The notes below the pieces were generated by a model. It did not search any database and was not told the DNA's origin. It worked only from the letters and a program-made list of their open reading frames with translations. Below, one piece after another: positions 7,455 through 53,560 of a stretch of 64,000 nt of DNA (positions within the stretch are counted from its first letter, which is position 1; every line of letters begins with the position of its first letter). The translations under genes were made by a program, and so were the position numbers. Source of the stretch: Allofranklinella schreckenbergeri (GTDB lineage: Bacteria; Pseudomonadota; Gammaproteobacteria; Burkholderiales; Burkholderiaceae_C); contig NZ_RDQM01000004.1 in the NCBI RefSeq assembly GCF_003703475.1, forward strand, positions 124,001 through 188,000. The letters are read 5' to 3'.

Positions 7455-7524
7455 TACCAATCAATAAGAAAAAAATAAGCCTATTTCGGCATGATAGAAA
7501 TTAATCTTTATTTCCGTTGATTGA
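7455..7524 (+). repeat. Palindromic intergenic element, copy A
   Basis: AT-rich inverted repeat with left arm CCAATCAATAAG and right arm TTTCCGTTGATTG around the core TATTTCGGCATGAT. The core reads in the same direction as the methyltransferase gene that ends at 7373. The right arm reaches the possible TTG start at 7521 of the M48 protease gene. Confidence 0.85.
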
Positions 7525-7562
7525 CAATTCCAAGAACAGGCTTTGACGCCGCCCCTCCCGCC

Positions 7563-8444
7563 ATGCGTTACAGCAATCCCCCCCTCTCCAGCATCGACCA
7601 CGAAGCCGCCTTGCACGCCGAGCGCGGGGAATTTGCCCGCCTGCTGCTCATCGTCGCGGGCATTGTGCTGGCGCTGTTGCTGGCGCTGGACAGGCTGGCG
7701 GTCTGGGCCGCGCCACGGCTGCCCTTTGCCTGGGAAGTGGAAATCGCCCGCAGCACCGGGCTGGACACGCTCGCGCTGGGCATGAAAGACAGCCAGACCA
7801 GCATTGATGCGGCGCAGCAGCAAGCCCTCACGGCCGAGCTGCAACGCCGCCTCGACCGCATCGCCCAGGCCATCGAGCTGCCGCCCGACATCCGCCCCAC
7901 CGCCCACTTTGTGGACAGCCCCACCATCAACGCCGTGGCCACCCTGGGCGGCCATGTCGCCGTGTTCGCAGGCCTGCTGCGCCAGCTTGAATACGAGGAG
8001 GAGCTGGACGCCGTGCTGGCCCACGAGCTGGGCCACATCCAGCACCGCCACATGGTGCGCCAGCTCAGCCGCGGCCTGAGCGCGGCGGCCGCTTTGGGGC
8101 TGGTCGGCATCCGCTCGCCCACCCTCAACCGCTGGCTGATTGGCGATGTGCAGCGATTGAGTCAACTGGCCTATTCGCGCCAGGCCGAGCAGGAAGCCGA
8201 CGCCACCGCAGCACAGGCTTCGCTGCGGCTGTACGGCCACACCGGCGGGCTACAGCAACTGTTTCAACGCTTTCAGGCCCTGCACGCAAAGCACGGCGGC
8301 GATTACGGCGAATGGGCCAGCATGCTGCAAACCCACCCCCATCCGGCCGAGCGCCTGCGCGCCATCCCCAACTCCGGCGCGGCCCATGCGACCCTGACGC
8401 CACTGCGCGGCGCGGTCAAGCTCGGCCCCAACCCCAACAAATAA
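7563..8444 (+). CDS. M48-family membrane zinc metalloprotease
   Basis: A zinc endopeptidase of 293 residues resembling HtpX/Oma1-type proteases. One membrane segment lies at about 26-45. The zinc site HELGH is at 154-158 inside VLAHELGHIQHRH, and the third ligand is probably the Glu of RQAEQEADATAA. The closing THPHPAERLRAI is also typical of the family. The protease domain most likely faces the periplasm. I chose the ATG at 7563; a TTG at 7521 inside repeat element A would add 14 unconserved residues. It is followed after 86 bases by a YbjQ gene in the same direction. Confidence 0.88.
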   Translation: MRYSNPPLSSIDHEAALHAERGEFARLLLIVAGIVLALLLALDRLAVWAAPRLPFAWEVEIARSTGLDTLALGMKDSQTSIDAAQQQALTAELQRRLDRIAQAIELPPDIRPTAHFVDSPTINAVATLGGHVAVFAGLLRQLEYEEELDAVLAHELGHIQHRHMVRQLSRGLSAAAALGLVGIRSPTLNRWLIGDVQRLSQLAYSRQAEQEADATAAQASLRLYGHTGGLQQLFQRFQALHAKHGGDYGEWASMLQTHPHPAERLRAIPNSGAAHATLTPLRGAVKLGPNPNK

Positions 8445-8450
8445 AGACCA

Positions 8451-8475
8451 GGCAAGGCAAGGCAAGGCAAGGCAA
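8451..8475 (+). repeat. Five tandem GGCAA units
   Basis: Five perfect head-to-tail copies of GGCAA lie in the gap between the M48 protease gene and the YbjQ gene. This is a short simple repeat prone to copy-number slippage; no coding frame crosses it. Confidence 0.8.
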
Positions 8476-8530
8476 GCCACGCCTTGCCATGTACTCAACC
8501 CTTCATCTTCATCTGCAAGGAGCGCAAGCT

Positions 8531-8845
8531 ATGTTGATCAGCAATATGGAATTCGTGCCAGGGCGGCGCGTGGTGGAACACCTGGGCGTCGTGCAAGGCA
8601 GCACCGTGCGCGCCAAGCACGCGGGCAAAGACTTCATGGCCGGCCTGAAAAACATCACCGGCGGCGAGCTGAAAGCCTATACCGAGCTGCTGACCGAAGC
8701 ACGCCAGCAGGCCACCGACCGCATGGTGGCGCAGGCCAGCCAAGTCGGCGCCAACGCCGTGCTGAATGTGCGCTACGTCACCACGGCCGTTACCGCTGGC
8801 GCGGCGGAAATCCTCGCCTATGGCACGGCGGTCGTGCTGGAGTGA
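8531..8845 (+). CDS. YbjQ-family (heavy-metal-binding-like) protein
   Basis: A 104-residue single-domain protein of the YbjQ/UPF0145 family, which forms pentamers in solved members; function is not established. The family pattern runs the whole length: VVEHLGVVQGSTVRA, then a helix with LLTEARQQATDRM, GANAVLNVRY, and ILAYGTAVVL at the end. CAAGGAGCG precedes the ATG at 8531. It lies six bases before a second gene that carries the same domain fused to a membrane region, so the pair is probably an operon of paralogues. Confidence 0.9.
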   Translation: MLISNMEFVPGRRVVEHLGVVQGSTVRAKHAGKDFMAGLKNITGGELKAYTELLTEARQQATDRMVAQASQVGANAVLNVRYVTTAVTAGAAEILAYGTAVVLE

Positions 8846-8851
8846 TGCGCC

Positions 8852-10413: not shown

Positions 10414-10440
10414 AAAAACCGCACTTTTCGCCCGCCCATG

Positions 10441-12259: not shown

Positions 12260-12603
12260 GATGAAAATCCTTCCTTGAGATGCGTACAGAAAAAAATCGG
12301 TTTTTCTGCCCCGGCTCGTCTGGCCGGTTGGAAGGACGGGCACGACGATCCGGGGCGAGTGTCAGCCCTTCGTTTTTGTCGTGATGATGGCGGCGGCAAT
12401 GGCCACGGCATCCGTCGTGGGGATGGGGGCAGGCATTGCGCGACCAGCGTACGCCGCCGCGCGCACGCGCGCAGCCCCGGCCGCAAGGGCGGCGTGGCGG
12501 GGGGCGGAGTGCAAGGGGGGTACAGGCATGATGGGCGCGCAGTATAGCGGGCTTTGCCGGGCTTCAAAGGCTGCGCCCGGGGGCGCTGGGCTTTCCCAAA
12601 AAA
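12260..12603. other. Intergenic region upstream of asd
   Basis: About 340 bases with no credible gene. Frames on both strands are open but consist of low-complexity Ala/Arg/Met strings with no start signal or conserved pattern. It probably contains the asd promoter, but no clear -35/-10 pair is visible. It ends at palindromic element B. Confidence 0.5.
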
Positions 12604-12681
12604 TACAATTCAACGTAAAAATGATTTGATTCAAATAATGCCAAAACAAGGGAATTTTATTTCTTTTTGATTTATAAAAAT
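12604..12681 (-). repeat. Palindromic intergenic element, copy B
   Basis: AT-rich element with right arm ATTTCTTTTTGATTT and a more decayed left arm. The core on the minus strand is CCTTGTTTTGGCAT. It lies 15 bases after the stop of the DUF3014 gene (12697) and in the same sense. Confidence 0.8.
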
Positions 12682-12696
12682 CCCAAATTCAGCCAC

Positions 12697-13797
12697 TTAC
12701 TGCACAGGCTGGGCGGTGATGGCGGCGCGAAAGGCGCGCAGTTGGGCTTTGATGGCGCGGGTGTTGTCCGCGCCCATGCGCAGCAGCATTTTTTGCCCGG
12801 CGGAGAGGGCTTCGAGCTGCGGATCGACAAACTGGTAGCGCACCCAGGGCTGTTGCGAGGCAACGGTGCTGCGCACGGGCATGAGCTGCACGCGCGGCGG
12901 CGTGGCGGGTTCGGGCGTTTGCAGCAGGTGGTCGATGACGGCGACGAGGCGGTCGTTGAAGTAGCGCCCGGGGTAGCCCAGCTCCTCATAGGCTTGCTGG
13001 AACAGCGCGTAGTGCTGGCGGTATTGCCGCGCGGCCTGGGGCACGTCCAACTGGCGCACGAATTGCATGGCGGCGGCGTAGCGGGCGTGGTTGGCGGGGG
13101 CGATGTGGGCATCGGCCTCGCCGCCATCGACGAGAAAGCGCGGCGGGGTGGGGTGCACGGGCCATTGGGCGGTGGGCGCGCGCTCGGCGGTGAGGTTGTC
13201 CACGGTGGCGACGAAGCGGCGCACGAGGCGCTCGGGCCGCACCCAGGCGGCGGCGGGGCCGGATACGGCCGGGGCCAGGGCGGCGAGGGTTTCGCGCAAA
13301 TGAGCGTCGGAAGCGTCCAGCGCGGGCAAGGCGGCAGCGGCGGGCTCCAGCGGTTCCAAGGCGTGCAAGGGGTGGCTTGGGCTGGCAGGCGATGCGGGGG
13401 CGGCTTCAGCGGTCGCGGCGGTTTCAGCAGCGGTTTCAGCCACTGGAACGGATGGGGGGGCGAGGGCTGCTGCATCTTCTGGCGGCGGCGGTGGCAGCGG
13501 GATGGGGTTGTCCAGCGCCGTCATCGCATCGGGTGTGGGGGCCGGTGAGGCGTCAGGGCGGACGGCGGCGGGCTGGTCTTTGGCGCCTGGCCGTTCCCCC
13601 GACAGGCCATCGAGCCAGCCGCTCCAGCGCGCGCTCAGGCTTTGCCCGGCGTGCAGCAGGCGTTGGCGCTCTTGCGGCGCTTGCCATAGCCAGACGGCGA
13701 CGGCGGCTGCCAGGGCCAGCGCGGTGAGAGTTTTCCAGGGCCGACGGCGCGGGCGAGGGGCCAGGCCGTGGGCATGGGCGCGGATGCGTTGCGTCAT
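12697..13797 (-). CDS. DUF3014-family membrane-anchored protein
   Basis: A 366-residue protein whose C-terminal half matches the DUF3014 family as I know it; function unknown. A basic N-terminus precedes one membrane segment at about 23-40. A long Pro/Ala/Glu-rich linker spans about 70-165, probably crossing the periplasm. The conserved domain lies at about 170-366, with LVRRFVATVDNLTAE, YFNDRLVAVIDHLLQTPEP and QKMLLRMGADNTRAIKAQL. The ATG at 13797 gives a compact N-terminus; another ATG ten codons upstream lies inside palindromic element C and is less likely. Palindromic elements sit on both sides. Confidence 0.8.
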   Translation of the reverse strand: MTQRIRAHAHGLAPRPRRRPWKTLTALALAAAVAVWLWQAPQERQRLLHAGQSLSARWSGWLDGLSGERPGAKDQPAAVRPDASPAPTPDAMTALDNPIPLPPPPPEDAAALAPPSVPVAETAAETAATAEAAPASPASPSHPLHALEPLEPAAAALPALDASDAHLRETLAALAPAVSGPAAAWVRPERLVRRFVATVDNLTAERAPTAQWPVHPTPPRFLVDGGEADAHIAPANHARYAAAMQFVRQLDVPQAARQYRQHYALFQQAYEELGYPGRYFNDRLVAVIDHLLQTPEPATPPRVQLMPVRSTVASQQPWVRYQFVDPQLEALSAGQKMLLRMGADNTRAIKAQLRAFRAAITAQPVQ

Positions 13798-13823
13798 GGC
13801 GCGATTCCTTTTTGCGATGCAAT

Positions 13824-13895
13824 CCAATCAAAAGAAATTAGACATCAATGAATTCATGCCAGAAAAAGGCAATTTCATTTCCTTTTGATTGATAA
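13824..13895 (-). repeat. Palindromic intergenic element, copy C
   Basis: Arms CCAATCAAAAGAAAT and ATTTCCTTTTGATTG are nearly perfect complements; the minus-strand core is TTTTTCTGGCATGAATTC. It lies 170 bases after the mltA stop and in its sense. Confidence 0.88.
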
Positions 13896-14065
13896 ATTTC
13901 TGCCAGGCCATGCCTTTGGCAGCGCGAAAGGGCTTTGAGATCACGCCAGCGCCTATCGGTTCCGCAGCCCTGCCCTGTTGCACGGCCACACCCAGGCGCT
14001 CGCAGGCGTTCTCGGGCGCGACCCGGGGCTTGGGTGTGCAGTTTGGTGGTTTGGCCGCCTGGCCT

Positions 14066-15268
14066 TTACTGCGCCCCGTAGGGCAAGGGCGCGCCTTTGG
14101 GCCAGAAGGCCCACATGTACAGGTCTTGCTTGACGCGCCCGGCAAGCTGGCCGGCCTCCTCGCCCCAGCCGGCGAAGTAGTCGGCGCGCACGGCGCCGGT
14201 GATGGCGCTGCCGGTGTCTTGCGCCAGCACCAGGCGTTTGGTGTTGAGGGTGGGGCCTGCGGTCATCAGCCACACGGGCGTGCCGTAGGGGATGCTGCGG
14301 CGGTCCACGGCGATGGAGCGCCCGGGCGTGAGGGGCACGCCTTGCGCACCGCGCGGGCCGACGTGCAAATCCTGCGCAGGCAGGGTTTCCTCGCGGAAGA
14401 AGACGTAGCGCGGGTTGCTCCAGAGCATTTCCTGCACGCGCTCGGGCGGGTTGGCATCCACCCAGGCTTTGATGCCGGGCCAACTGGCGTCTTTGATCAG
14501 GCGGCGCTCGAGCAGCCAGCGGCCGATGCTTTTGTAGGGGTGGTTGTTGGTGCCCGCAAAAGCGGCGCGCAGGTGGCGGATGTCGCCATTGGGCTCTTGC
14601 AGGATCAGCCGCCCCGAGCCTTGGATGTGCAGCACCATGGCATCCACCGGGTTTTCCAGCCAGGCGATTTCCTTGCCGCTCAAGGCGCTGGCCGCGCCGG
14701 GGTGGCCGGAGTCGATTTGGGCGCGGCTAAACCACACGCCCTGGCCGGAGTAGCCCGAGGGCAGGCGGTACAGCGGCACCTCGAAGCCGCCCCCGCGCAG
14801 GCGGCGCGCGCGCATCACCGGCTCGTAGTAGGCGGTCAGCAGGCCCAGGTCTTTGCCCTCCAGCGTGCGCACCAGATAGGGTTGCAGGCTGCGGCGCATC
14901 CAGTCGCGGCGCGTGGCGTCGTCGGCAGTTTGCAGGCCGGCGACTTCGCTGCACACCACACGCCAGGCGGGCGCCGGGCGGGCGCAACTGTGCATCCAGG
15001 CGGGCCAGGCAGCGCCGAGTTCATCTTGCTCAAAGCCGGGCACATCGGCCCAGGGCACGGGCGTCCACAGCGCCGTCGGGCCGGGCACGCTGGGGCCTAG
15101 CGGGTGGGGAGTGAGGACCGGCAGAGCGCGCGGACGCACCACAGGCTGCGCGGGCGCGGGTTGCGGCGGCTCTGGCGCGGTGGAGCAAGCCGACAGCAGC
15201 AAGGCGCTGAAAGCGACGGCAACGGCCGCCAACGGGGCCAGCACACGGCGATGCAAAGGGGTGGACAT
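14066..15268 (-). CDS. mltA: Membrane-bound lytic murein transglycosylase A
   Basis: Cleaves peptidoglycan glycan strands to leave 1,6-anhydromuramic ends, acting from the inner face of the outer membrane. The 400-residue product has a lipoprotein signal peptide with lipobox LLSAC and acylated Cys28. The MltA domain follows, with LLTAYYEPVMRARR, VPLYRLP and HIQGSGRL. The C-terminal 3D domain has the Asp-rich LVLAQDTGSAITGAVRADYF, which carries the catalytic Asp. I chose the ATG at 15268 because it places the signal peptide at the N-terminus; the frame stays open about 140 bases further. It is divergent from the OmpA-like lipoprotein at 15556. Confidence 0.94.
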   Translation of the reverse strand: MSTPLHRRVLAPLAAVAVAFSALLLSACSTAPEPPQPAPAQPVVRPRALPVLTPHPLGPSVPGPTALWTPVPWADVPGFEQDELGAAWPAWMHSCARPAPAWRVVCSEVAGLQTADDATRRDWMRRSLQPYLVRTLEGKDLGLLTAYYEPVMRARRLRGGGFEVPLYRLPSGYSGQGVWFSRAQIDSGHPGAASALSGKEIAWLENPVDAMVLHIQGSGRLILQEPNGDIRHLRAAFAGTNNHPYKSIGRWLLERRLIKDASWPGIKAWVDANPPERVQEMLWSNPRYVFFREETLPAQDLHVGPRGAQGVPLTPGRSIAVDRRSIPYGTPVWLMTAGPTLNTKRLVLAQDTGSAITGAVRADYFAGWGEEAGQLAGRVKQDLYMWAFWPKGAPLPYGAQ

Positions 15269-16330: not shown

Positions 16331-16361
16331 CGAGCGGGAGCATCGCACCCCACACCGAAAT

Positions 16362-16438
16362 CCAATCAAAAGAAAATAGAGCATTTACCCATCATGCCGA
16401 AACACGGTATTTTTATTTCCTTTTGATTGGTAAAAATC
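16362..16438 (-). repeat. Palindromic intergenic element, copy D
   Basis: The best-preserved copy. Arms CCAATCAAAAGAAAATA and TATTTCCTTTTGATTGG pair at 16 of 17 positions. The minus-strand core is GTGTTTCGGCATGATGGG. It ends two bases from the sco stop codon, in the sense of sco. Confidence 0.92.
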
Positions 16439-16440
16439 CA

Positions 16441-17076
16441 TTACTTAGGCGCACTTTTCAGCAACTGGCGCACGTCGGCGACGACTTGCTCCACCGGCGT
16501 GCCATAGCGCACGTACAGGCGCAAGCGGCCCTGGGTGTCGTACACATAGCCTGCGGCCGTATGGTTGATGGTGTAGGAGTTTTCATCCGCGCCGGGCACC
16601 TTTTGGTAGGTCACTTTGAAATCCTTGGCCATCGCGGCCACCTGCTCGGGGGTGCCGATCAGGGGCACGGCATCGGGGTCGAAGTTGCCCAGGTACTCGC
16701 GCATGATCTCCGGCGTATCGCGCTCGGGGTCCACGGTGACGAAGACGATTTGCAGCCGCTTGGCGTCTTGGCCCAACTGCTCTTTGACCTGCGCCATTTC
16801 CACCATCGTCACGGGGCACACATCGGGGCACTGCGCATAGCCGAAAAAGATGAACACCACCTTGCCCGCAAAATCGGCCAGCGTGCGCATCTGGCCGCTG
16901 GCATCGGGCATGGCCCAGCTTTGGGCGTAAGAGGCGCCCGTCAAATCCAGGCTGTTGAAACGCAGCTTTTCCTCTTTCGCGCCACAAGCGGCCAACCCCA
17001 GCGCCACGCAAGCGGCCAGCGCCGCCATGCCCAGGCGGGACGCCCGCGCCGCAGCGCGCCATGAAACAGCCTTCAC
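16441..17076 (-). CDS. SCO1/SenC-family copper chaperone lipoprotein
   Basis: Delivers copper to the CuA site of cytochrome c oxidase or keeps its cysteines reduced. The 211-residue protein has an N-terminal lipoprotein-type signal (LGLAAC, Cys31) and a thioredoxin fold. The copper ligands are Cys83 and Cys87 in CPDVC and His172 in TINHTAAG. The start is GTG at 17076, with GGAGG eight bases upstream. It overlaps the ctaB stop in GTGA, so the two are translationally coupled. It is last in the ctaA-ctaB-sco operon, and element D follows directly. Confidence 0.93.
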
Positions 17077-20809: not shown

Positions 20810-20831
20810 GGGCTGGCTCCCGGGTTTATTC

Positions 20832-20916
20832 CATATCTTCAAGCAAAAAATATCCCTTTTTCGGCAATGCTGTATTGAATCCATTTGACCGCATGATCTG
20901 GAAATATGAAGATCAC
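20832..20916 (+). repeat. Truncated inverted copy of the palindromic element (E1)
   Basis: Contains TTTCGGCAATGCTGTATTGA at 20859-20878, which is the reverse complement of the core of element E2 at 19 of 21 positions over 20859-20879. Short flanking arms ATATCTTC and GAAGAT mark its edges. It is in the opposite direction to E2, making a head-to-head pair upstream of the AhpD-like gene. Confidence 0.65.
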
Positions 20917-20924
20917 CCATCATG

Positions 20925-21000
20925 CCAATCAAACGAAAAACCACTTCAATACAGTCTTGCCGAAACAGGAAGATTTATTTTCTTTTTGATTGATAAAAAA
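20925..21000 (-). repeat. Palindromic intergenic element, copy E2
   Basis: Arms CCAATCAAACGAAAA and TTTTCTTTTTGATTG. The minus-strand core is CTGTTTCGGCAAGACTG. It ends four bases from the stop of the aldehyde dehydrogenase gene at 21005, in its sense. Confidence 0.88.
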
Positions 21001-21004
21001 CAGC

Positions 21005-23929: not shown

Positions 23930-23951
23930 GGCAGTCTCCTTTTCTTTTATT

Positions 23952-24026
23952 GCAAATCAATGTGAATCGAAAACAAATACCATCATGCCAAAACAAGGTG
24001 ATTTATTTTCTTTTTGATTTGAAAAA
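23952..24026 (-). repeat. Palindromic intergenic element, copy G
   Basis: Left arm AAATCAATGTGAATC is decayed; the right arm is TTTATTTTCTTTTTGATTT. The minus-strand core is CTTGTTTTGGCATGATGG. It lies 19 bases after the rng stop, in its sense. Confidence 0.88.
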
Positions 24027-24045
24027 TAATGGCATTGAAGCAATG

Positions 24046-27879: not shown

Positions 27880-27979
27880 GGAGAGGGTGTGCGCCCGGCA
27901 GGGCGCTTGGCTTCAAAACCTGCGCATGGCACAAGCTGGCGAAGCGCGGCCAGCAGGCTTGCCCAAATCACCAAAAACC

Positions 27980-28052
27980 CAAATCAAAGGAAAATCAACT
28001 TCAACACCAAATTGCCAAAACAAGCAATTTTTATTTACCATTGATTTCTAAA
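27980..28052 (-). repeat. Palindromic intergenic element, copy H
   Basis: Arms CCAAATCAAAGGAAAAT and ATTTACCATTGATTT; the minus-strand core is GCTTGTTTTGGCAATTTGG. It lies ten bases after the mutL stop, in its sense. Confidence 0.85.
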
Positions 28053-28062
28053 TTAGAAAGCC

Positions 28063-30348: not shown

Positions 30349-30378
30349 ACTGGGCGACACCCCCGCCCATCAAGTATT

Positions 30379-30456
30379 ATTTCAAAACAAAGGAAAACAA
30401 ATCACGCCATTTCGGCATGATGGATATGAATTTGATTTTCCCAATGATTGAAAAAC
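30379..30456 (+). repeat. Palindromic intergenic element, copy I
   Basis: Arms TTTCAAAACAAAGGAAAAC and TTTTCCCAATGATTGAAAA are imperfect complements. The plus-strand core is CATTTCGGCATGATGG. It follows the tRNA-Met terminator in the tRNA's sense and is convergent with the aldehyde dehydrogenase at 30524. Confidence 0.83.
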
Positions 30457-30473
30457 CCGCCGAAAGGCGGGTT
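30454..30473 (-). terminator. Intrinsic terminator of the aldehyde dehydrogenase gene
   Basis: On the minus strand, AACCCGCC-tttc-GGCGGGTT is followed by TTTTT; it lies 50 bases after the stop at 30524. Confidence 0.88.
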
Positions 30474-32228: not shown

Positions 32229-32238
32229 CGCCGCGCTT

Positions 32239-32345: not shown

Positions 32346-32476
32346 CGCCTGCTGGTGTTCTGGGTGGGTGGGCCTGGGCCTGATGGAACTGCCCTGCCCC
32401 GTCGTTGGCTCATGCCTTGGGCCTCCCCGGCCATGCAGGCGGCTTTTGTCCAACTGCCATGAACTGGAGCTTTTTC

Positions 32477-33928
<1,452 letters not shown>

Positions 33929-33963
33929 CGACCGTGGCGGCCTCAGCCGGGGTTGCCCAAAAC

Positions 33964-34037
33964 CACAAACCAAAGGAAAATTAAAATTCCAAAAAACATG
34001 CCAAAACAGGAATATTTTATTTCCTTTGATTTGTAAA
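33964..34037 (-). repeat. Palindromic intergenic element, copy J
   Basis: Nearly perfect 26-base arms: ACAAACCAAAGGAAAA on the left and TTCCTTTGATTTGT on the right. The minus-strand core is CCTGTTTTGGCATG. Unlike most copies it reads against both neighbouring genes, and it ends two bases before the start codon at 34040. Confidence 0.9.
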
Positions 34038-34039
34038 AT

Positions 34040-34669
34040 ATGGAGCAAACCAGCATGCGACGCCCGCCCTCGCGCCTTATGCCGCCCCGCGACAGCAGAC
34101 CCAGCCCAACAGCAGGCGAGCAACTGCGCTTCGCCTTGTCCATCGCCCTGCTGGCAGGCGCGGCACTTGCCCTGCTGTGGATCTGGCTGCAAGCGGCATG
34201 GAAGTCGCCTGTGTCCACCCTGCTCGCCACCGCCTTGCTCGCCGCCGCGTTCGCCTGGTTGTATCGCCGCGTCAATCAGGAAACCCAACAGCAGCGGCAA
34301 CGCCTGCAAGCCCTGGCGCAGCGCCGCTGCGGCCAAAGCATTTGCCAATTCGCCCGCCAGGCCAACTGCCGCCAGCACGATCCGTGGGTCGTGCGCGCGG
34401 TGTACGAAGAACTGGCCCACGCCGCAGGGGCATTGAGCGGCAGCGCCCAGCCCCTGCCCCTGCCCCTGCCCGTGCATTGGGACGACAACCTGACAAAGAC
34501 GCTGTACCTCGATGGCGACGCCCTGGATATGGACATCGCCCCCGAAATCGCCCGCCGCGCGGGCCGTTGCATCAAAAACACCCGGCACAACCCCTGGTAC
34601 GGCAAAGTCCGCACCGCAGGCGATTTGGTGCAATTTTTCAATGCCCAGCCGCGCGTAACACGCGCCTGA
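34040..34669 (+). CDS. Hypothetical membrane protein
   Basis: A 209-residue protein of unknown function. A basic, Pro-rich N-terminus is followed by two adjacent membrane segments at about 30-50 and 56-75. The rest is a soluble C-terminal region with four cysteines near CGQSICQFARQANC and an acidic YLDGDALDMDIAPE. No family is recognised. The start ATG at 34040 directly abuts palindromic element J, with no clear ribosome-binding site; ATGs at 34055 or 34079 are possible. It is 33 bases upstream of arsC. Confidence 0.65.
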   Translation: MEQTSMRRPPSRLMPPRDSRPSPTAGEQLRFALSIALLAGAALALLWIWLQAAWKSPVSTLLATALLAAAFAWLYRRVNQETQQQRQRLQALAQRRCGQSICQFARQANCRQHDPWVVRAVYEELAHAAGALSGSAQPLPLPLPVHWDDNLTKTLYLDGDALDMDIAPEIARRAGRCIKNTRHNPWYGKVRTAGDLVQFFNAQPRVTRA

Positions 34670-36165: not shown

Positions 36166-36237
36166 TGGCACCGAGGGATGCCAGGCGCGGCCTGCGCTGC
36201 TTCGCTTCCCGCAAAGGCTCTGCCAAAAGCCATTTAT

Positions 36238-36313
36238 TTCAATTCAATAGGAAAATAAATTGACTTGTTTCGGCATGATGGTCAATACATCAATTTTCCC
36301 CCATGATTGAAAA
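36238..36313 (+). repeat. Palindromic intergenic element, copy K
   Basis: Arms TTTCAATTCAATAGGAAAAT and ATTTTCCCCCATGATTGAAA; the plus-strand core is CTTGTTTCGGCATGATGG. It reads in the sense of the permease gene and is convergent with the GNAT gene at 36327. Confidence 0.88.
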
Positions 36314-36326
36314 ATAAGCCAAACCC

Positions 36327-43547: not shown

Positions 43548-43815
43548 TTTTTTCTGCTTCAAGAAAGTGACCGAACAGGGCCAGGATGGGCACAGCCTGC
43601 CTCGCCCCAAAGCCTGCTCAAAGTCCCGACGCAAGCGGGCGAAGTGGTGTGGGATGGGCTCTGCGTGCGCCGCAGACCGCCCCAATCCGCCTCATGGCCA
43701 GCCGCGCAGAGACTTTGCATAGGCTCTGGCAGATCATTATGGGACAAGCCCTCTGCGCACAAAGCCTTGCCAGCCCCGGCAGTGGCCACGGCCCACGCCT
43801 TTTCAAAAACCATAA
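43548..43815. other. Intergenic region upstream of the alpha-2-macroglobulin gene
   Basis: About 270 bases without a credible gene; open frames exist on both strands but show no start signal or family pattern. It presumably contains the alpha-2-macroglobulin promoter and ends at element L. Confidence 0.5.
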
Positions 43816-43892
43816 TTACAATTCAAAAAGAAAATTAATCACCTTGTTATGGCGTGATAGATATAAATTTTCATTTATATTGAATTGTAAAA
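43816..43892 (+). repeat. Palindromic intergenic element, copy L
   Basis: Arms TTACAATTCAAAAAGAAAAT and TGAATTGTAA are complementary. The usual CAATCAA/TTGATTG ends are replaced by the equally paired CAATTCAA/TTGAATTG. The plus-strand core is CTTGTTATGGCGTGATAG. No plus-strand gene ends upstream, so this copy breaks the usual orientation rule. Confidence 0.85.
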
Positions 43893-43924
43893 AATCTTGA
43901 TGCGGGATACCCCATCAAGGGCCG

Positions 43925-47318: not shown

Positions 47319-49289
47319 ATGAAGAAGCTGAACATCGCCATGGCAGTCATGGCCACTATGGGGCTGAGCGCTGCGCAGGCCCAGCAAGCGCAAGAATTTT
47401 TTGCTCCCTCCTACCACGCCAGCGAAGTGGCGGGTGAAGCCACGCCGCTGGCCTTTTCATCCCAATTCAGCGCCAAACTGGCCAAGAGCGCACGCGTAGC
47501 CGTCACGCCCACCGTCGTCGATCTGGGTGCGATGGATGACTACTCCCTGATCGCCAAGCGCGCCGTGGCCGAGCAGCCCAACGTGCGCATGATCGGCACG
47601 GCTCGCGCCAGCGATGCCACCAGTGCCGTCGAATCCACCCAATCCCTGCTGAAGTGGCAAAAGCTGCCCGGCGGGCGCCAGGTGGCCGCGCTGCAATACC
47701 AGTCGGGCAATGCCCACGGCATGCGCTTGGGCCTGCTCGTGCATGCTTTGCCGGATGCTGCCGTCGTGCGCGTTTATGCCCCCGGCCAAGCCGACAGCGC
47801 GCAAGAGATGACCGGCGTGCTGATCCGCGAAACGCTGGAGCGCAACGCCAGCGCCAAAGAAGCCACCTTCGAGCAAATCAACACCTTCTGGCTGCCCACC
47901 GTTGAAGGCGATGCAGCGGTGGTGGAAATCGAACTGCCCGCCTCCGCCTCGGCCAGCGACGTGCAGGTAGCCATCCCGACCGTTTCGCACATTTTTGAGT
48001 CGCTGCAAGATCTGGCTTATCAGGACATCCAGAAAAGCATCGGCGAATCCGGCGCCTGCAATTACGACGCCTCGTGTGAGCCGGCCATTGAACAGGTGCG
48101 CAAATCCGTCGCCCGCATGACCTTTGTGCGCGATGGCATCACAGGCACTTGCACCGGCACACTCATCGCCGACCAAAACCGCACCGGCACGCCCTATTTC
48201 CTGACGGCAGCACACTGTATCGACAACCAGCCCACCGCTTCCACGCTGGAAACCGACTGGCGCTTCCACACCCAGTCCTGCATGGATCCAGCGCTGTCGG
48301 CCTCCCACTTCAGGCTGACGGGGTCGGCTTCCGGTGCGCGTCTGGTCTATTCGGAAAACAAGTACGACACCACGCTGCTGGTGCTCAACAGCAAGCCTTA
48401 TGGCGACGTGGTGTACGCCGGTTGGTGGACCACTCAGGAACTGCACCAAGCCGTCTATGGCATCAGCCACCCCAGCGGCGATCTGCAAAAAGTCAGCTTT
48501 GGCCGCATCTCCAACTACCACGTTTGCTCCGATTTCGATGAGGACGGCAGGACCGAATGCCGCGAGGGCCTGCGCGGCGATGACAGCGATTTCTTCAATG
48601 TGAAGTACAGCTACGGCACCACCGAAGGCGGCAGCAGCGGCTCGGGCCTGTTTGCCTGGCACCAAAACGGCGCCTACTACCTCACCGGCGTACTTAGCGC
48701 GGGCAGCGCCTCTTGCTCATGGCGCGAGGGGAGCAACGTCTATGGCCGTTTTGACCGCGCCTACCACGATGGCCTCAAATACTTCCTGGGCGAAAAAGCC
48801 ACCAATTACATGAGCTTGCGCCCTGTATACCGCTTCTTCAACACGGCTTCCGGCTCGCACTTCTACACCCAAAGCGTCCAGGAGCGCGACATCGTCATCA
48901 AAAACATGCCTGCCCTTCATTACGAAGGCGAAGCCTTCTGGGCGTATGTGAATGCACATGTGCAAAACTCAGCGCATGCTCACCTCAGCCCCGTGTACCG
49001 CTTCTTCAACCAGGCCACCGGCGCACACTTCTACACCACCAGCCCCCTTGAACGCGACATTTTGAGATCTGCCGACAATGCCAACACCTTCAAGTACGAA
49101 GGCGAGGTCTGGTATGCCCGCACCATGCCTGGCGACGGCACCGATCCGGTCTATCGCTTCTACAACACCAGCAATGGCTCGCACTTCTACACCATCAGCC
49201 ATCAGGAAAAACTGCTGATTGACGCCATCTTCCCCAGCCTCAAACCCGAAGGCGTGGCCTACTACGCTTGGCCCAAGACCAGCCAGTAA
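47319..49289 (+). CDS. Secreted trypsin-like serine protease with DUF5648 repeats
   Basis: An exported endopeptidase of 656 residues. A signal peptide (about 1-22, ending SAAQAQQ) leads to a pro-region of about 200 residues. The S1-fold protease has the triad His299 in FLTAAHC, Asp350 in NKYDTTLLVL and Ser440 in GGSSGSGL, with paired cysteines resembling lysyl endopeptidases. The C-terminus from about 502 holds three tandem copies of a 45-residue module (PVYRFFN, GSHFYT, YEGEAF), the DUF5648 pattern thought to aid surface or sugar binding. The ATG at 47319 has AGAGAGG upstream. A strong terminator follows. Confidence 0.92.
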   Translation: MKKLNIAMAVMATMGLSAAQAQQAQEFFAPSYHASEVAGEATPLAFSSQFSAKLAKSARVAVTPTVVDLGAMDDYSLIAKRAVAEQPNVRMIGTARASDATSAVESTQSLLKWQKLPGGRQVAALQYQSGNAHGMRLGLLVHALPDAAVVRVYAPGQADSAQEMTGVLIRETLERNASAKEATFEQINTFWLPTVEGDAAVVEIELPASASASDVQVAIPTVSHIFESLQDLAYQDIQKSIGESGACNYDASCEPAIEQVRKSVARMTFVRDGITGTCTGTLIADQNRTGTPYFLTAAHCIDNQPTASTLETDWRFHTQSCMDPALSASHFRLTGSASGARLVYSENKYDTTLLVLNSKPYGDVVYAGWWTTQELHQAVYGISHPSGDLQKVSFGRISNYHVCSDFDEDGRTECREGLRGDDSDFFNVKYSYGTTEGGSSGSGLFAWHQNGAYYLTGVLSAGSASCSWREGSNVYGRFDRAYHDGLKYFLGEKATNYMSLRPVYRFFNTASGSHFYTQSVQERDIVIKNMPALHYEGEAFWAYVNAHVQNSAHAHLSPVYRFFNQATGAHFYTTSPLERDILRSADNANTFKYEGEVWYARTMPGDGTDPVYRFYNTSNGSHFYTISHQEKLLIDAIFPSLKPEGVAYYAWPKTSQ

Positions 49290-49448: not shown

Positions 49449-50393
49449 ATGCCCACCACCATGCACCATTTGCCCAATCCCCTGATCATCGCCACCCGCG
49501 AAAGCCGCCTGGCCCTCTGGCAAGCCACACACATCCAGGCCGAGCTGAAGCGGCTCGGGCATACCGCGCGATTGCTGGGCATGACGACGCAGGGCGATCA
49601 AATCCTCGACCGCAGCCTCAGCAAAATCGGCGGCAAAGGCCTGTTCGTCAAGGAGCTGGAAACCGCCCTGGCCGATGGGCGCGCGCACCTGGCCGTACAT
49701 TCGCTCAAAGACGTGCCCATGGCCTTGCCCGAAGGCTTTGTGCTGGCCTGCGTACCGCCGCGCGGCAATCCGCACGATGCCTTCGTCTCCAACACCTATG
49801 CGCGCCTGGAAGATTTGCCTCAGGGCGCCATCGTGGGCACCTCCAGCCTGCGGCGGCAGGTGCTGCTGCACCACCTGCGGCCCGATCTGCGTATCCAGCC
49901 CCTGCGCGGCAACCTCGACACCCGCTTGCGCAAACTCGACGAAGGCCAGTTTGACGCCATCGTCCTCGCCGCCGCCGGGCTGGAGCGCCTGGGCCTGGCC
50001 GAGCGCATCCGCATGCAATTTCCCCCCGAGCAAATGCTGCCCGCTGCGGGCCAAGGCGCGCTGGGTATTGAGGTACCCGCCCGCCACGGCGCGCTGATCG
50101 CGGCGCTGCAACCGCTCTCGCACCCGCCCACCTGGCTGGCCACCGTGGCCGAGCGCACCATCAGCCTGGCCCTGGGCGGCAGTTGCTCCATGCCGCTGGC
50201 CGCGCACGCCGTGTGGGAAGGCACCGGCCAGCTATGGCTGCGCGCAGCTTGGGGCGACCCAGAAGGCCAGCGCCCGCTCACCCAAGTGCAGGCGCGCGCC
50301 CAGGTCGAAAACGCCGACCAGGCCCAAGCCCTGGGGCAGCAACTGGCCGATGCCCTGCGCAGCGCCGCCGGATTGGGTGATGCGCTGCCCTAA
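49449..50393 (+). CDS. hemC: Porphobilinogen deaminase (hydroxymethylbilane synthase)
   Basis: Polymerises four porphobilinogens into hydroxymethylbilane in haem synthesis. The 314-residue enzyme has [47 protein letters not shown] and the dipyrromethane-binding Cys246 in LGGSCSMPL. ATGs at 49449 and 49461 are both possible; the first is used. hemD often follows but here a palindromic element and an esterase gene do. Confidence 0.95.
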
Positions 50394-50406
50394 TGCATCA
50401 TTTTTT

Positions 50407-50474
50407 GCAAATCAAAGGAAATGAAATTGCCCTTTTTAGGCAATTCATGCAATAAATCACTTTTCCATTTGTAA
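50407..50474 (+). repeat. Palindromic intergenic element, copy M
   Basis: Arms GCAAATCAAAGGAAATGA and ACTTTTCCATTTGTAA; the plus-strand core GCCCTTTTTAGGCAATTCAT is diverged. It lies 13 bases after the hemC stop in the sense of hemC, and 15 bases before the esterase start. Confidence 0.78.
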
Positions 50475-50489
50475 ACTCAACCAACGGCC

Positions 50490-51230
50490 ATGCACCACCC
50501 CAAGCCACGCCACACCCGACGCCACTTCAGCGCGCAACTGCTGGGCCTATTGAGCCTCTGCACGCTGGGCCTGCCCCATCTTGCGCAAGCGCAAGAACAA
50601 CCGGCCGCGCTCGCCCCTGCACCCACCGCTGCACCCGCGCGCCTGCTGATCGTGGGCGACTCCATCAGCGCCGAATACGGCCTCGCCCGCGGCCAAGGCT
50701 GGGTGGCCTTGCTGGAGCAACGCCTGCAAACCCAGGGCCTGCCCGTAACCCTCGTCAACGCCAGCATCAGCGGCGAAACCACTTCCGGCGCACGTGCGCG
50801 CCTGCCCGCCCTGCTCAAAGCCCACCAGCCGCGTTACGTCGTGATCGAACTGGGCGGCAACGACGCCCTGCGCGGCCTGCCCCTGCCCCACACGCGTGAC
50901 AACCTGCGCGCCATGATCGACGCCGCCCACGCCGCCAGCGCCCGCACCCTGCTGCTGGGCATCCAGGTGCCGCCCAACTACGGCGCGCAATACAGCCGCG
51001 ACTTCGCCGCCGTCTTCACCCAGGCGGCCGAGCAAAGCGGCGCCGCCCTGGTGCCGTTCATGCTCGAAGCCATCTCCGCCCCTGATGACGTGCAAACCTA
51101 TTTCCAGCCCGACCGCATTCACCCCAACGCCGCCGCCCAGCCGCTGATCCTCGACACCGTCTGGCCCGCCGTGCTTGCATTGCTGACCGCGCCCCAATCC
51201 CAGCCTGCCCAAAATCACCAATCAAAATAA
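50490..51230 (+). CDS. GDSL/SGNH-family esterase, TesA-like
   Basis: A periplasmic lysophospholipase/thioesterase-type hydrolase of 246 residues. The signal peptide ends near LAQAQEQ (about 35), followed by an Ala/Pro linker. SGNH blocks: LLIVGDSISAEYGL with the nucleophile Ser58, the Gly of ASISGETTSG, the Asn of ELGGNDALRG, and Asp/His in PDRIHPNA. This arrangement matches TesA/arylesterase. The last codons (NHQSK and stop) lie inside palindromic element N, so the element supplies the end of the gene. Often paired with an ABC transporter elsewhere, but not here. Confidence 0.92.
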   Translation: MHHPKPRHTRRHFSAQLLGLLSLCTLGLPHLAQAQEQPAALAPAPTAAPARLLIVGDSISAEYGLARGQGWVALLEQRLQTQGLPVTLVNASISGETTSGARARLPALLKAHQPRYVVIELGGNDALRGLPLPHTRDNLRAMIDAAHAASARTLLLGIQVPPNYGAQYSRDFAAVFTQAAEQSGAALVPFMLEAISAPDDVQTYFQPDRIHPNAAAQPLILDTVWPAVLALLTAPQSQPAQNHQSK

Positions 51231-51293
51231 AATCAACTTTATACCCATCATGCCAAAACAAGGCAATTTTATTTCCTTTTGATTAATAAAAAT
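51218..51293 (-). repeat. Palindromic intergenic element, copy N
   Basis: Arms CCAATCAAAATAAAAT and ATTTCCTTTTGATTA; the minus-strand core is CTTGTTTTGGCATGATGGG. It ends immediately before the stop codon of the nitroreductase-like gene at 51294, in its sense, and overlaps the last five codons of the esterase gene on the other strand. Confidence 0.9.
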
Positions 51294-52280
51294 TCACCCA
51301 CCAGAGTCAACCTCCAGCATCACCGCCTGCACTGGCCGACGCAAAGCATGCGGCAGCGGCTTGCCATAACCGATGCGCAGCAGGATTTGCGCAAACGATG
51401 CGTTATTGAGCCATTGCGCGCGCAATACACTTTGCAATGCAGGCACCTCGCAGGGCTGATTCAAATATGCATGCGCAATCCCCGCTTGTGTCAATTGCAA
51501 TAAAAACCGCTGCAAAACACGCCCTGTTTCAATCCAGGAAACCAGGTGATTGCCCACGCTGGAAATCAATACCAAATGCGATGAGGAATCGATTTTTCGC
51601 CGGTCTGTGGCATTTTGCTTTTTCTCATTGAGCATCCCTTTCACAATAGGCCGCACCAGCCACGCAGGCAAACTGGGCGCGCCCAAAGCCGCATAACTCA
51701 AACCATCGCGCGTGCGCTGGGCATGCGCGCGGTTGAAACGAATCCATGCCAGCAACTCCGCTTTGAATGCCGGATCATTCATTTGCGCAGCATTGCCCTG
51801 CATTACGCATTGGGCCAGGGCCTCGAACTCCCGGCTTGCCCGTGGCCAGAGGTGAATGCGATGGGCATGGTCGTTTTCGAAATCGCGCAAAATATGCGCC
51901 AGCACATTTTCGGCAATGCTTTTTCCAGAATAAATACCGCGATTGGTTTGGCGACGGGCAATACCCTCAAAAAGGGGATGGGCTTTTATATTCGCATCCT
52001 GAATCAATTCGATGGCAATTTGACCAGATGCAGAAACCCTGACGTTGGTGCGATATTTCCGCTCCGATGCGGCCAAACACAGATTTTCTACAGCGCACCC
52101 CAAGCTGATAAACAATTCACGGTTATCGCCATCCACTACAGGCAAACGCCTTGAAAAATCGGGGCAAATTGTGATTTCGCCCTTTTTCACCATAAAAATC
52201 CACGGCTGCGTATTGTGGCCAGAGGGCGCCAACGTGGCATTTTCAATCATGAAAAAACTGTCGGCATGCCAGTTTTGCAT
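51294..52280 (-). CDS. Nitroreductase-fold protein (Acg-like)
   Basis: A 328-residue protein with the doubled nitroreductase fold seen in Acg/Tp53-associated proteins, which bind flavin but often do not turn over nitro compounds. MIENATLAPSGHNTQPWIF is the N-terminal flavin-binding signature. Others are FISLGCAVENLCLAA, RQTNRGIY and the C-terminal QLTQAGIAHAYLNQPCEVP with IGYGKPLPHALRRP. The ATG at 52280 (MQNWHADSF) has GGAGA eight bases upstream; a longer frame begins inside the CTAGAGCG repeat end and is not credible. Codon use is more AT-rich than in lpxC. Confidence 0.82.
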   Translation of the reverse strand: MQNWHADSFFMIENATLAPSGHNTQPWIFMVKKGEITICPDFSRRLPVVDGDNRELFISLGCAVENLCLAASERKYRTNVRVSASGQIAIELIQDANIKAHPLFEGIARRQTNRGIYSGKSIAENVLAHILRDFENDHAHRIHLWPRASREFEALAQCVMQGNAAQMNDPAFKAELLAWIRFNRAHAQRTRDGLSYAALGAPSLPAWLVRPIVKGMLNEKKQNATDRRKIDSSSHLVLISSVGNHLVSWIETGRVLQRFLLQLTQAGIAHAYLNQPCEVPALQSVLRAQWLNNASFAQILLRIGYGKPLPHALRRPVQAVMLEVDSGG

Positions 52281-52346
52281 ATACACAATCTCCGTTTTGA
52301 TGGCATTCATGCAGTTGCAGGGCCACAAGCCTGTTTGCATGGGCAA

Positions 52347-52371
52347 GCGCAAAGTGCATAACACGCTCTAG
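52347..52371 (-). repeat. Solo end of the MITE-like repeat, upstream of lpxC
   Basis: Twenty-five bases ending GTGCATAACACGCTCTAG are identical to the right end of the element at 27605-27879. No partner end lies nearby. It stops 11 bases before the lpxC start codon, so it forms most of the leader. Confidence 0.8.
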
Positions 52372-52382
52372 AATGCACGCCC

Positions 52383-53306
52383 ATGCTAGCCCAGAGAACC
52401 ATTCGCACTCTCAATCAAGCCACCGGTGTTGGCTTGCACAGCGGCCGCCGCGTTGATTTGACCTTGCGGCCAGCGCCTGTCAATACAGGCATTGTTTTCA
52501 CCCGCGTCGATTTGCCCCAGCCGCAGCCTGTGCGCGTCAGCGCCGATGCGGTGTTTGATACGCGCATGGCCTCCACGATTGGCAGCGAGCTGGCGCGCAT
52601 CAGCACGATTGAACACATCATGTCCGCCTGCGCGGGGCTGGGCATCGATAACCTGTACATCGATTTGACGGCAGAGGAAGTGCCCATTTTCGATGGCTCG
52701 TCAGCGCCTTTTGTCTATCTGCTCCAGCAAGCGGGCATTGAGGTGCAAAGCGCGGCGCGGCGCTTTGTGCGCGTGACCAAGCCGGTGCAGGTGCGCGTGG
52801 ATGGCATGGGGCAGTCCAAATGGGCGAGGCTGGAGCCTTACAACGGGTTCAAGCTGGATTTTGAAATCGACTTCAGCCACCCGGCGGTGGATTTGACGGG
52901 GCAAAGTGTGTGCTTCGACATGGGCCGGGGGCACTACGTCAAGGAAATCGCGCGCGCGCGCACTTTCGGTTTTACGCGCGATGTGGAGGCGCTGCGCGCC
53001 AATGGGCTGGCTTTGGGCGGCGGTTTGGATAACGCCATCGTGATGGACGATTACAAAATCCTCAACGAAGGCGGGCTGCGCTACGACGATGAGTTTGCGC
53101 GGCACAAGATTCTGGATGCCATTGGCGATTTGTATATCCTGGGCAGCCCGCTGCTGGCCGCCTATAGCGCGTACCGCTCGGGCCACGCGATGAACAATGA
53201 GCTGCTGCGCGCGCTGCTGGCGCAGCCCGACGCCTGGGAGGTGGCGACGTTTGATGACGAGCAACAAGCGCCCGAGGGTTTCAGGGCTGGCGCGCTGGCG
53301 TATTGA
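52383..53306 (+). CDS. lpxC: UDP-3-O-acyl-N-acetylglucosamine deacetylase
   Basis: Zinc enzyme for the first committed step of lipid A synthesis. The 307-residue protein shows [20 protein letters not shown], zinc ligand His78 in [31 protein letters not shown], and the second zinc site with His and Asp in [15 protein letters not shown]. It usually follows ftsZ in the same direction; here it is convergent with ftsZ. The leader contains a solo repeat end. A strong terminator follows. Confidence 0.97.
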
Positions 53307-53355
53307 GAACGGCGAGAACGGGCGGGGGCAGGCTTTTCAAACCAGCTTTCCAATC

Positions 53356-53391
53356 AAAAAGCGCATCGGCTTAGCCGATGCGCTTTTTTTT
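53356..53391 (+). terminator. Intrinsic terminator of lpxC
   Basis: AAAAAGCGCATCGGC-tta-GCCGATGCGCTTTTTTTT, 50 bases after the lpxC stop. Confidence 0.93.
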
Positions 53392-53400
53392 ACACCACTC

Positions 53401-53467
53401 AAATCATAAGAAAAGCCAACGCATAGCTGGCTTGCCATGGCAGGGGGACTTTGTTTCCTGATGATCT
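53401..53467. repeat. Degenerate palindromic element, copy O
   Basis: AAATCATAAGAAAAG on the left and TTTCCTGATGATCT on the right resemble decayed arms, with GGCTTGCCATGGCA between. It lies next to copy P in the gap between lpxC and ftsZ. Family membership is tentative. Confidence 0.4.
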
Positions 53468-53489
53468 ACACTCCAAAGAAAATAGAAGT

Positions 53490-53560
53490 GCAGATCAAGA
53501 GAAAACCAAAAATCCGCCCATCAAGCCTAAAACACTTTGTTTTATTTCTTATTGATTTGC
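53490..53560 (-). repeat. Palindromic intergenic element, copy P
   Basis: Arms GCAGATCAAGAGAAAA and TTTATTTCTTATTGATTTGC; the minus-strand core is GTGTTTTAGGCTTGATGGG. It lies 52 bases after the ftsZ stop, in its sense, and touches the perfect hairpin at 53559. Confidence 0.82.

Follow-up and report, generated by a model that had tools for sequence, protein, structure and literature searches.

What is the short AT-rich palindrome that recurs between the genes of a 64,000-nt stretch of the Allofranklinella schreckenbergeri genome (hereafter the window), and what keeps it there? The original prediction had counted 17 such sites, of which a covariance model retrieves 14 as sound copies (61–88 bits, E 1e-11 to 5e-18, scores that are high by construction since the model was built from these same 14 copies), the remainder amounting to two marginal matches (26 and 24 bits; Table 1). 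The anatomy described at the outset, AT-rich inverted arms around an asymmetric TTGTTTYGGCATGATGG loop, is recovered in the model copies. The element proper covers about 80 bp, the model carrying information between columns ~5 and ~86, and its length is near-constant, most model matches spanning 90–91 nt. The left arm carries a half-site close to TTTAYMAATCAAWARGAAAWAAAAT, the right arm its approximate reverse complement, and the core between them reads as the asymmetric TTTYGGCAT. The arms are inverted, as claimed, but not strictly complementary, about 12 of 17 positions pairing within a copy. The G+C content per copy is 16–42% in the source genome, against 63% for the window, with one marginal window spot at 45%. 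Below, G000 denotes the source genome, G005 a near relative at 94% identity, and G006, G008 and G009 sister species.

Table 1. Copies and marginal matches of the element in the window, with the strand of the core and the neighbouring genes.
Feature	Position	Core strand	Score	Surroundings
Copy	7446..7535	+	78.3 bits	arms CCAATCAATAAG / CGTTGATTG; between + genes 6090-7373 and 7563-8444
Copy	12595..12685	-	78.6 bits	behind stop of gene 12697-13797(-), 12 nt away
Copy	13813..13903	-	79.5 bits	between 12697-13797(-) and 14066-15244(-)
Copy	16351..16441	-	86.8 bits	convergent spacer, 15613-16245(+) / 16441-17028(-)
Marginal degenerate match	20821..20911	+	26 bits, E 0.0045	adjoins 20914-21004
Copy	20914..21004	-	82.2 bits	directly behind stop of gene 21005-22447(-)
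Copy	23942..24032	-	83.9 bits	behind gene 24046-25617(-)
Copy	27969..28059	-	69.9 bits	behind gene 28063-30093(-)
Copy	30371..30461	+	66.9 bits	88 nt behind tRNA 30210-30283(+), 63 nt behind stop of gene 30524-32053(-)
Copy	33955..34045	-	75.6 bits	27 nt behind gene 32459-33928(+)
Copy	36229..36319	+	68.6 bits	just behind stop of 36327-36818(-), convergent with ORF 35410-36165(+)
Copy	43808..43898	+	68.4 bits	between 37416-43454(-) and 44146-44544(-); no stop close by
Copy	50396..50486	+	61.5 bits	directly behind stop of gene 49449-50393(+); common to G005
Copy	51207..51297	-	88 bits	convergent 50490-51230(+) / ORF 51294-52364(-), gene ends reach inside; common to G005
Marginal match	53389..53479	-	24.4 bits, E 0.011	adjoins next copy
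Copy	53480..53570	-	64.3 bits	convergent 52530-53306(+) / 53613-54827(-); common to G005

Run on stretches of the genome outside the window, the model finds far more than the window copies. Twenty stretches of 20 kb each, chosen in advance (400 kb), yield 82 distinct copies (83 rows, one locus being matched on both strands), and another 13 stretches add 58 (60 rows, with both strands matched at two loci). The preset sample extrapolates to about 580 copies genome-wide and the full set of 154 copies in 717 kb to about 600, which bears out the expectation of many hundreds; a whole-genome search with scoring returned at least 150. The pattern TTGTTTYGGCATGATGG with up to two mismatches occurs 166 times in the genome, against 0 for the reversed pattern. 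Copies mostly stand alone in their spacer (one in 87 of 89 intergenic regions) and are well diverged: among the 102 ungapped copies of the 154, mean pairwise identity is 60%, the best pair reaches 84% and none are near-identical.

These copies lie mostly at gene 3′ ends, whatever the strand of their core. Among intergenic regions of at least 60 bp, the element occupies 40 of 63 convergent, 93 of 285 tandem and only 9 of 62 divergent ones (p = 3e-8). Between tandem genes (n = 96), copies lie a median of 14 nt from the stop upstream and 95 nt from the start downstream; 62 are within 25 nt of the stop codon and 74 are closer to the stop than to the start (p = 1e-8). The core is on the gene strand in 46 tandem copies and on the opposite strand in 50; in convergent spacers the split is 22/22, and in those tandem copies that lie no more than 25 nt from the stop it is 34/28. 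The original prediction had mentioned neither this tie to gene 3′ ends nor the selection on the motif that is described below.

The strands of the best 150 copies suggested replication polarity, as would be expected of a polar chromosome signal (FtsK/Chi-like), a DNA-uptake signal being the related option. Outside the window, copies of at least 62 bits do follow the GC-skew sign by 31 to 12, but those below 62 bits are even (46/47) and the whole set gives 41 plus and 31 minus at positive skew, 36 plus and 46 minus at negative skew (Fisher p = 0.15). Since the agreement is confined to high scorers, it fits a strand mutation bias acting on spacers. Polarity is tied to score and not borne out in all copies, and we consider a polarity or uptake signal, which would leave the tie to gene ends unexplained, scarcely credible.

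At face value, copies just behind stop codons could be REP-type RNA elements, transcribed from the upstream gene and folding into a hairpin by which transcription is terminated or the 3′ end of the mRNA protected; a similar placement (<20 bp from the upstream ORF) is published for REPs (PMC3733652). The arms do pair in excess of shuffled partners, in fixed register both in G000 (11.99 vs. 11.68 of 17 pairs, p = 0.004) and in G005 (12.12 vs. 11.66, p = 0.001, with copies partly orthologous to those of G000), in a looser arm test (9.74 vs. 9.23 pairs, sd 0.15, p = 0.0002) and in the inner hairpin (3.58 vs. 3.42, p = 0.011), while covariation in a structure-fitted alignment (A3) lies above all 500 shuffles. 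Yet about 5 of 17 arm positions are left unpaired per copy, fixed-register pairing over 28 pairs is 17.28 vs. 17.08 expected (102 copies), and of seven window copies tested by folding, two are better than all 200 shuffles but five stay inside their range. Moreover, the best-conserved part includes the asymmetric core, yet this core points along the gene about as often as against it. Nor does the element displace canonical terminators, which occur in 18 of 93 tandem spacers with it vs. 32 of 192 without, and in 13 of 40 vs. 5 of 23 convergent ones; as terminator rates are alike with or without it, the element does not qualify as an intrinsic terminator (G+C-rich hairpin followed by a T tract), and the same counts give no support to terminator replacement. 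In our own scan of element-bearing spacers, 10 of 34 T-tract starts fall at element columns 0–91. Because arm pairing is only slightly above that of shuffled partners, the arms are better explained as inverted DNA half-sites than as a hairpin, and an RNA hairpin was rejected as the main constraint. Altogether, we regard the RNA reading as doubtful, although some hairpin or cruciform role may exist, given the small pairing excess.

The comparison of G000 with G005 bears on how long the copies have been in place and on whether their sequence matters. Aligned blocks contain 48 copies in full, every one of which occurs in both genomes, 45 with a model match (orientation being kept in all 45) and the other three aligned without large gaps; among these 48 copies and nine collinear gaps, no element-only presence/absence polymorphism was seen. 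Judging from these alignments, almost every copy compared predates the split of the species from its near relative. In 45 aligned pairs outside the window, the conserved columns (chosen from the 14 window copies) changed at 71 of 1289 positions (5.5%), flanking intergenic DNA at 440 of 3228 (13.6%) and the variable spacer columns of the element at 284 of 1198 (23.7%), i.e., change is 2.5 times lower in conserved columns than in flanks and four times lower than in spacers (conserved columns below flank, paired Wilcoxon p = 6e-8, 42 pairs with enough flank). At columns 22 (11/11), 71 (11/11) and 80 (9/9), all changes are purine-only or pyrimidine-only. As half-sites and core, taken across loci, changed less than the flanks and spacers more, the substitution pattern indicates purifying selection on the motif.

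Gene conversion among copies might mimic such a pattern, making the conserved columns look conserved between orthologs with no selection at all, as conversion changes only columns where paralogs differ. However, columns 8, 20, 70 and 79 combine a paralog identity of 0.47–0.60 with an ortholog identity of 0.87–0.95, whereas columns 22 and 43, with paralog identities of 0.54 and 0.41, change fast (ortholog identities 0.73 and 0.53). Tract-wise conversion would move neighbouring columns together, contrary to this column pattern, and conversion therefore strikes us as highly improbable.

The same rates weigh against a relic MITE, on which view a non-autonomous transposon bounded by terminal inverted repeats has died and now decays neutrally wherever it does no harm. 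Such a relic would be dispersed, palindromic, lineage-specific and rare in divergent spacers, as the element is. Of three conserved gene pairs that hold an element, two exceed their sister counterparts by 89 and 124 bp and one falls short by 8 bp; the 10 pairs that hold none differ by a median of −2.5 bp. The rims of the G000 copies show a weak direct repeat some 7 nt long (identity 32.5% vs. 24.6%; z = 4.9, top-ranked among 1560 registers), but a register without meaning, which ends at column −25, does just as well (z up to 5.2), and G005 lacks the repeat (z = 1.3, ranked 353 among 1560); in a target-duplication scan, the longest shared word gives p = 0.04 near the rims and p = 0.02 in a far control. 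The sites that are empty in sisters lack clean insertion borders: in 12 cases (11 elements), genes 92–98% identical to those of sisters stop aligning 8–55 nt before the element, and the sister spacers beyond look unrelated by eye, so that no clean empty site can be recognised. Conserved columns that change 2.5 and four times more slowly than flanks and spacers cannot be explained by neutral decay, and neither the divergence of the copies nor the lack of presence/absence differences between the two genomes speaks for a transposon. The transposase search, which covered PF01797 (Y1_Tnp/RAYT), found no match in G000 or in the 80% complete G005; this domain is matched in five of 10 genomes of the genus, all five being without large numbers of the element, and in five of 14 control genomes. 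As a present-day account, the relic MITE is disfavoured, and we rate it as quite unlikely.

The original prediction had proposed a search of other Comamonadaceae, and a spread through that family was not found: among other genus members, only G005 carries the family in number (two of the relatives' searches used stricter filters, with few candidates scored per genome). There were 0 model matches at E ≤ 10 in 510.6 kb of DNA from G006, G008 and G009, a total that leaves out two G006 stretches fetched for holding two known copies, in which the model gives those two copies. At the 82–83% identical genes of these three species, the copy at 20914..21004 has no counterpart, and one G006 spacer of like length faintly resembles the element but has no model match at E ≤ 10. 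A pattern scan of genome contigs returned, among the matches listed, at least 65 stretches, of which 59 belong to one MAG (JAUMYU01) and the other six are single matches in unrelated taxa. The pattern is absent from the viral contigs searched and the phages searched gave no match, while 10 plasmid records have short matches (E 0.02–0.9). On these searches, the family looks lineage-specific, confined to one small branch.

As far as tested, the repeat matches no known family among those compared, and the suggestion that it is possibly undescribed stands, with no Rfam match, no REP tag, no Y1 transposase match and clear differences from BRE. At the gathering threshold, Rfam recognises only two tRNAs and a SAH riboswitch in the whole window, and one copy searched singly (51180–51320) has no match at E ≤ 1; among the papers listed in literature searches, no described family matching the element was seen. 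Like REP/BIME sequences (GTAG- and CGTC-tagged superfamilies), it has hundreds of intergenic copies next to gene 3′ ends, and it is commoner in convergent and tandem spacers than in divergent ones, just as REPs are rich in convergent and unidirectional spacers and rare in divergent ones (PMC3733652). Unlike REPs, it is about 80 bp long (REP: 20–40 bp), AT-rich and mostly a singleton, its arms covary little (more in the structure-fitted alignment), the column profile of 153 ungapped copies has no GTAG or CGTC tag at either end (tags as given in PMC3733652), and, unlike RAYT-associated REPs, it has no Y1_Tnp match in G000 or G005. The betaproteobacterial repeat element (BRE) is similarly intergenic and about 90 bp long, but has a mean of 69% G+C, at most 29 copies per genome and often a tandem arrangement (PMC3110155), whereas our element is AT-rich, has about 580 copies and is usually single. 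MITEs are likewise small dispersed inverted-repeat sequences; the element differs in having no near-identical copies, no transposase partner in the PF01797 search and no convincing target duplication, and in being common to two species and under selection. Finally, ERIC, BOX, RUP and NEMIS/Correia are intergenic interspersed repeats whose length and consensus differ from those of the element.

We tentatively favour, at a little under even chances, a family of DNA sites at gene ends, with putative protein-binding half-sites, dispersed earlier and now under selection. Each copy would be the binding site of a sequence-specific DNA-binding protein of nucleoid-associated type, acting where transcription units end and most likely limiting read-through or absorbing transcription-driven torsion, in the way proposed for REP/BIME sites. 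The family would thus be REP-like and extragenic, spread once in the past by a copying process earlier in the lineage (the Y1/RAYT search did not find the enzyme), and now held as putative protein-binding sites. GapR offers a partial parallel, being associated with AT-rich DNA and convergent gene ends, places of topological stress, but it recognises overtwisted DNA and correlates only modestly with AT content (PMC8360656), whereas the element is a fixed, conserved 80-bp motif.

The search for a binding protein yielded none, which weighs against this reading. HU/IHF genes are not expanded (three in G000 and in G005, as in six of eight other congeners), H-NS is single-copy in both genomes, with no extra paralogs, and intrinsic A-tract bending, calculated from wedge values, is not above that expected from composition. 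The IHF consensus is WATCAANNNNTTR; both arms contain AATCAA, but where the consensus has TTR the left arm reads AAA and the right one is AA-rich, and an IHF site was rejected.

More specifically, the roughly 600 bipartite sites might form a dedicated genome-wide gene-end system, a roadblock terminator or torsion insulator that would be served by a putative lineage-specific protein, would have arisen in a single small clade and would be kept by selection; we think this unlikely as a whole. Such a protein, if found, would represent a novel type of global gene-end factor. Whether bacterial extragenic repeats are parasites or parts of their host is an old question, of which two species at 94% identity, with sisters devoid of the family, allow a direct test. 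Copies shared within aligned blocks, with a motif that changes more slowly than its flanks and a spacer that changes faster, amount to evidence of function for a repeat family.

A covariance model of the element (R1; 91 positions), built from the alignment of the 14 copies of the window, finds these same copies there at 61–88 bits, plus two marginal spots. In a preset sample of the genome of the window (G000; 2,822,117 bp), i.e., 20 stretches of 20 kb, it recovers 82 distinct copies (83 rows), or one per 4.9 kb, hence about 580 genome-wide. With 13 further stretches picked for synteny, the count reaches 154 distinct copies in 717 kb, which would give about 600; the original prediction of many hundreds of copies in the genome is thus borne out by extrapolation (580–600), and a whole-genome search with R1 returns at least 150 copies. 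Another 14 distinct copies (E ≤ 1e-3), found in another 70 kb of contig C3, are left out of the placement, strand and selection counts. The family is diverse, with a mean pairwise identity of 60% and a most alike pair (among 102 ungapped copies) at 84%. Most copies are 90–91 nt long, and a column profile of 153 ungapped copies from two species carries information from about column 5 to about column 86 (strong parts in the table), the right arm being approximately the reverse complement of the left with a one-base shift.

Coordinates of element parts (columns of the 153-copy profile) and of other features
Feature	Position	Detail
Strong part of element	columns 9–10	TT
Strong part of element	columns 14–26	AATCAAWARGAAA
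Strong part of element	columns 28–31	AAAA
Strong part of element (core)	columns 40–42 and 44–47	TTT.GGCA
Strong part of element	columns 66–69 and 73–80	TTTT...TTGATTTG
CTAGAGCGTGTTATGCACTT repeat in window	27605–27634 and 27850–27879	inverted pair
CTAGAGCGTGTTATGCACTT repeat in window	52347–52371	
High-identity tract	G006:C18:120500–121400 and G000:C3:51706–52604	G000/G006 comparison; many more blocks seen
H-NS-type protein	L264 (G000:C1:77383–77469)	
H-NS-type protein	L265 (G005:C33:80028–80093)	
IS-like insertion site	L126 1925–2833 (G000:C30) vs L101 15066–15221 (G005:C62)	

Genes were called with our own codon-bias script (start positions not curated), and intergenic regions were counted only if ≥60 bp. 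In G000, the element occupies 40 of 63 convergent regions, 93 of 285 tandem ones and 9 of 62 divergent ones (p = 3e-8). Tandem copies (n = 96) lie at a median of 14 nt from the upstream stop and 95 nt from the downstream start (the stop is no more than 25 nt away in 62 of them, the start in 21), and 36 of 44 convergent copies have a stop within 25 nt. The strand of the core is split evenly relative to the genes: 46 same and 50 opposite in tandem regions, 22/22 in convergent and 5/4 in divergent ones (5 of 154 copies, with no called gene on one side, omitted).

Are the arms a hairpin? Fixed-register pairing, summed over 28 arm pairs, amounts to 17.28 vs. 17.08 expected for independent arms (102 copies). 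For the 17 central pairs, the mean is 11.99 paired vs. 11.68 with shuffled partners in G000 (p = 0.004; 0.009 when stratified by arm quality) and 12.12 vs. 11.66 in the near relative G005 (p = 0.001), while a looser test yields 9.74 vs. 9.23 (p = 0.0002). In the structure-fitted alignment A3, itself biased towards the structure, pairing is 76.4% vs. 73.5% after shuffling, and covariation exceeds all 500 shuffles. Of the seven copies (out of 14) whose RNA folding was tested, two fold better than every one of 200 shuffles. Arm pairing therefore exists but is minor, and the element is probably not mainly a hairpin. Two inverted half-sites, recognised in the DNA duplex, are a better fit, all the more as the core is asymmetric and yet indifferent to the strand of the gene.

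Between G000 and G005, 210 kb align in 43 blocks, with identities of 0.955 in coding regions, 0.898 in other intergenic DNA and 0.847 in elements. All 48 G000 elements wholly inside these blocks are present in G005, 45 with an R1 match (orientation kept in 45/45) and three below it. Collinear gaps, where an absent element could hide, were also checked: nine contain an element, which both genomes carry in five; in one, the G000 copy is below threshold but recognisable by eye; in three, one genome has no intact copy, owing to a >1-kb stretch missing from G005 (two gaps, one keeping half an element) or to an IS-like insertion in G000. The latter, with ends GAGAACCTGTTCAAAATCTTTTG / CAAAAAGATTTTGAACAGGTTCT, lies where G005 carries an element. 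No element-only polymorphism was seen among these 48 copies and nine gaps.

Conserved columns were chosen on the 14 window copies alone, and changes were then counted in the 45 aligned pairs from outside the window. Conserved columns had changed at 71 of 1289 positions (5.5%), vs. 440 of 3228 (13.6%) in flanking intergenic DNA within 60 nt, a difference with p = 6e-8 over the 42 pairs whose flanks were long enough. In variable columns, 284 of 1198 had changed (23.7%; p = 3e-5 against the flank). These rates indicate that the motif is under purifying selection. Gene conversion among copies is argued against since columns of similar variety among copies differ in their rate between species, 8, 20, 70 and 79 being steady and 22 and 43 fast. 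Changes at columns 22, 43, 52 and 59 are largely transitions, with variable columns outpacing the flanking intergenic DNA.

As to mobility, Y1_Tnp, the transposase family searched for, has zero matches in G000 and G005. A scan for target duplications picks up, at the rims of the G000 elements, a faint direct repeat of 7 nt (0.325 vs. 0.246; z = 4.9). An unrelated register scores even higher, however (z = 5.2), and G005 gives no such signal. No clean empty site was found in the sister spacers examined. In three conserved gene pairs that carry an element, the spacer measures 113/121, 127/38 and 146/22 bp (G000/sister); as the median difference over ten element-free pairs is −2.5 bp, the two longer G000 spacers hint at gain by insertion. 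A second inverted repeat, CTAGAGCGTGTTATGCACTT, serves as a contrast: often paired about 255 or 40 bp apart, it has 99 matches (≤3 mismatches) in G000, 55 in G005, 53 in G008, 26 in G006 and 68 in G009 (the last three being sister species), and has, as expected for a live MITE/IS family, paired copies that are nearly identical. With several copies about 108 bp from contig ends, it looks like a MITE whose full IS may break the assembly.

The core motif matches 166 times in G000, 154 in G005, twice in G006 and 0–3 times in the remaining congeners, so that G005 alone among the nine other genomes of the genus has it in numbers (90 distinct copies in 384.7 kb by R1). Under stricter filters (28 and 10 candidates scored per genome, respectively), R1 is positive in 2 of 150 family genomes (G000 and G006) and 1 of 399 order genomes, G005 being absent from the genomes listed. 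R1 has no match at E ≤ 10 across 510.6 kb from G006, G008 and G009, and none at E ≤ 1 across another 175 kb from G006 and G008 (L249–L257). Both G006 copies sit in stretches L119 and L120; one, flanked by citrate-synthase-type and aconitase-type genes (identified by eye), travelled with its neighbouring DNA, since the surrounding tract is 96% identical to G000 C3. G000 shares patchy tracts of 90–98% identity with G006 and G008 (about 71–84% elsewhere), which points to gene flow between lineages, bringing at least one element into G006.

These elements form an extragenic repeat family specific to this lineage and placed as REPs are (PMC3733652). By the features tested, the family does not belong to REP, differing in tag, RAYT gene and size; its stem covariation is weak. 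It is also unlike BRE, which is G+C-rich, often tandem and scarce (PMC3110155). No Rfam family matches, and no description appears among the papers listed in literature searches. The most likely of its proposed roles is as DNA-binding sites at gene ends. GapR (PMC8360656) offers a precedent for an AT-correlated association with convergent genes through supercoiling, but none there for the element's own motif. An H-NS-type protein, single in G000 and G005, has common changes around its DNA-binding motif (KKVPPRF and QDKD/RDKD, where 7 of the 8 other congeners compared have KKVA.KY and QG.D), and this candidate binding partner is a lead.

Finally, the window carries a SAH riboswitch (RF01057, 50 bits; 32237–32349) ahead of gene 32459–33928(+), and gene 47319–49289 contains three 73-nt direct repeats (48820–49216; spacing 156–168 nt) that, read by eye, encode a repeated YRFFN...HFYT-type motif.
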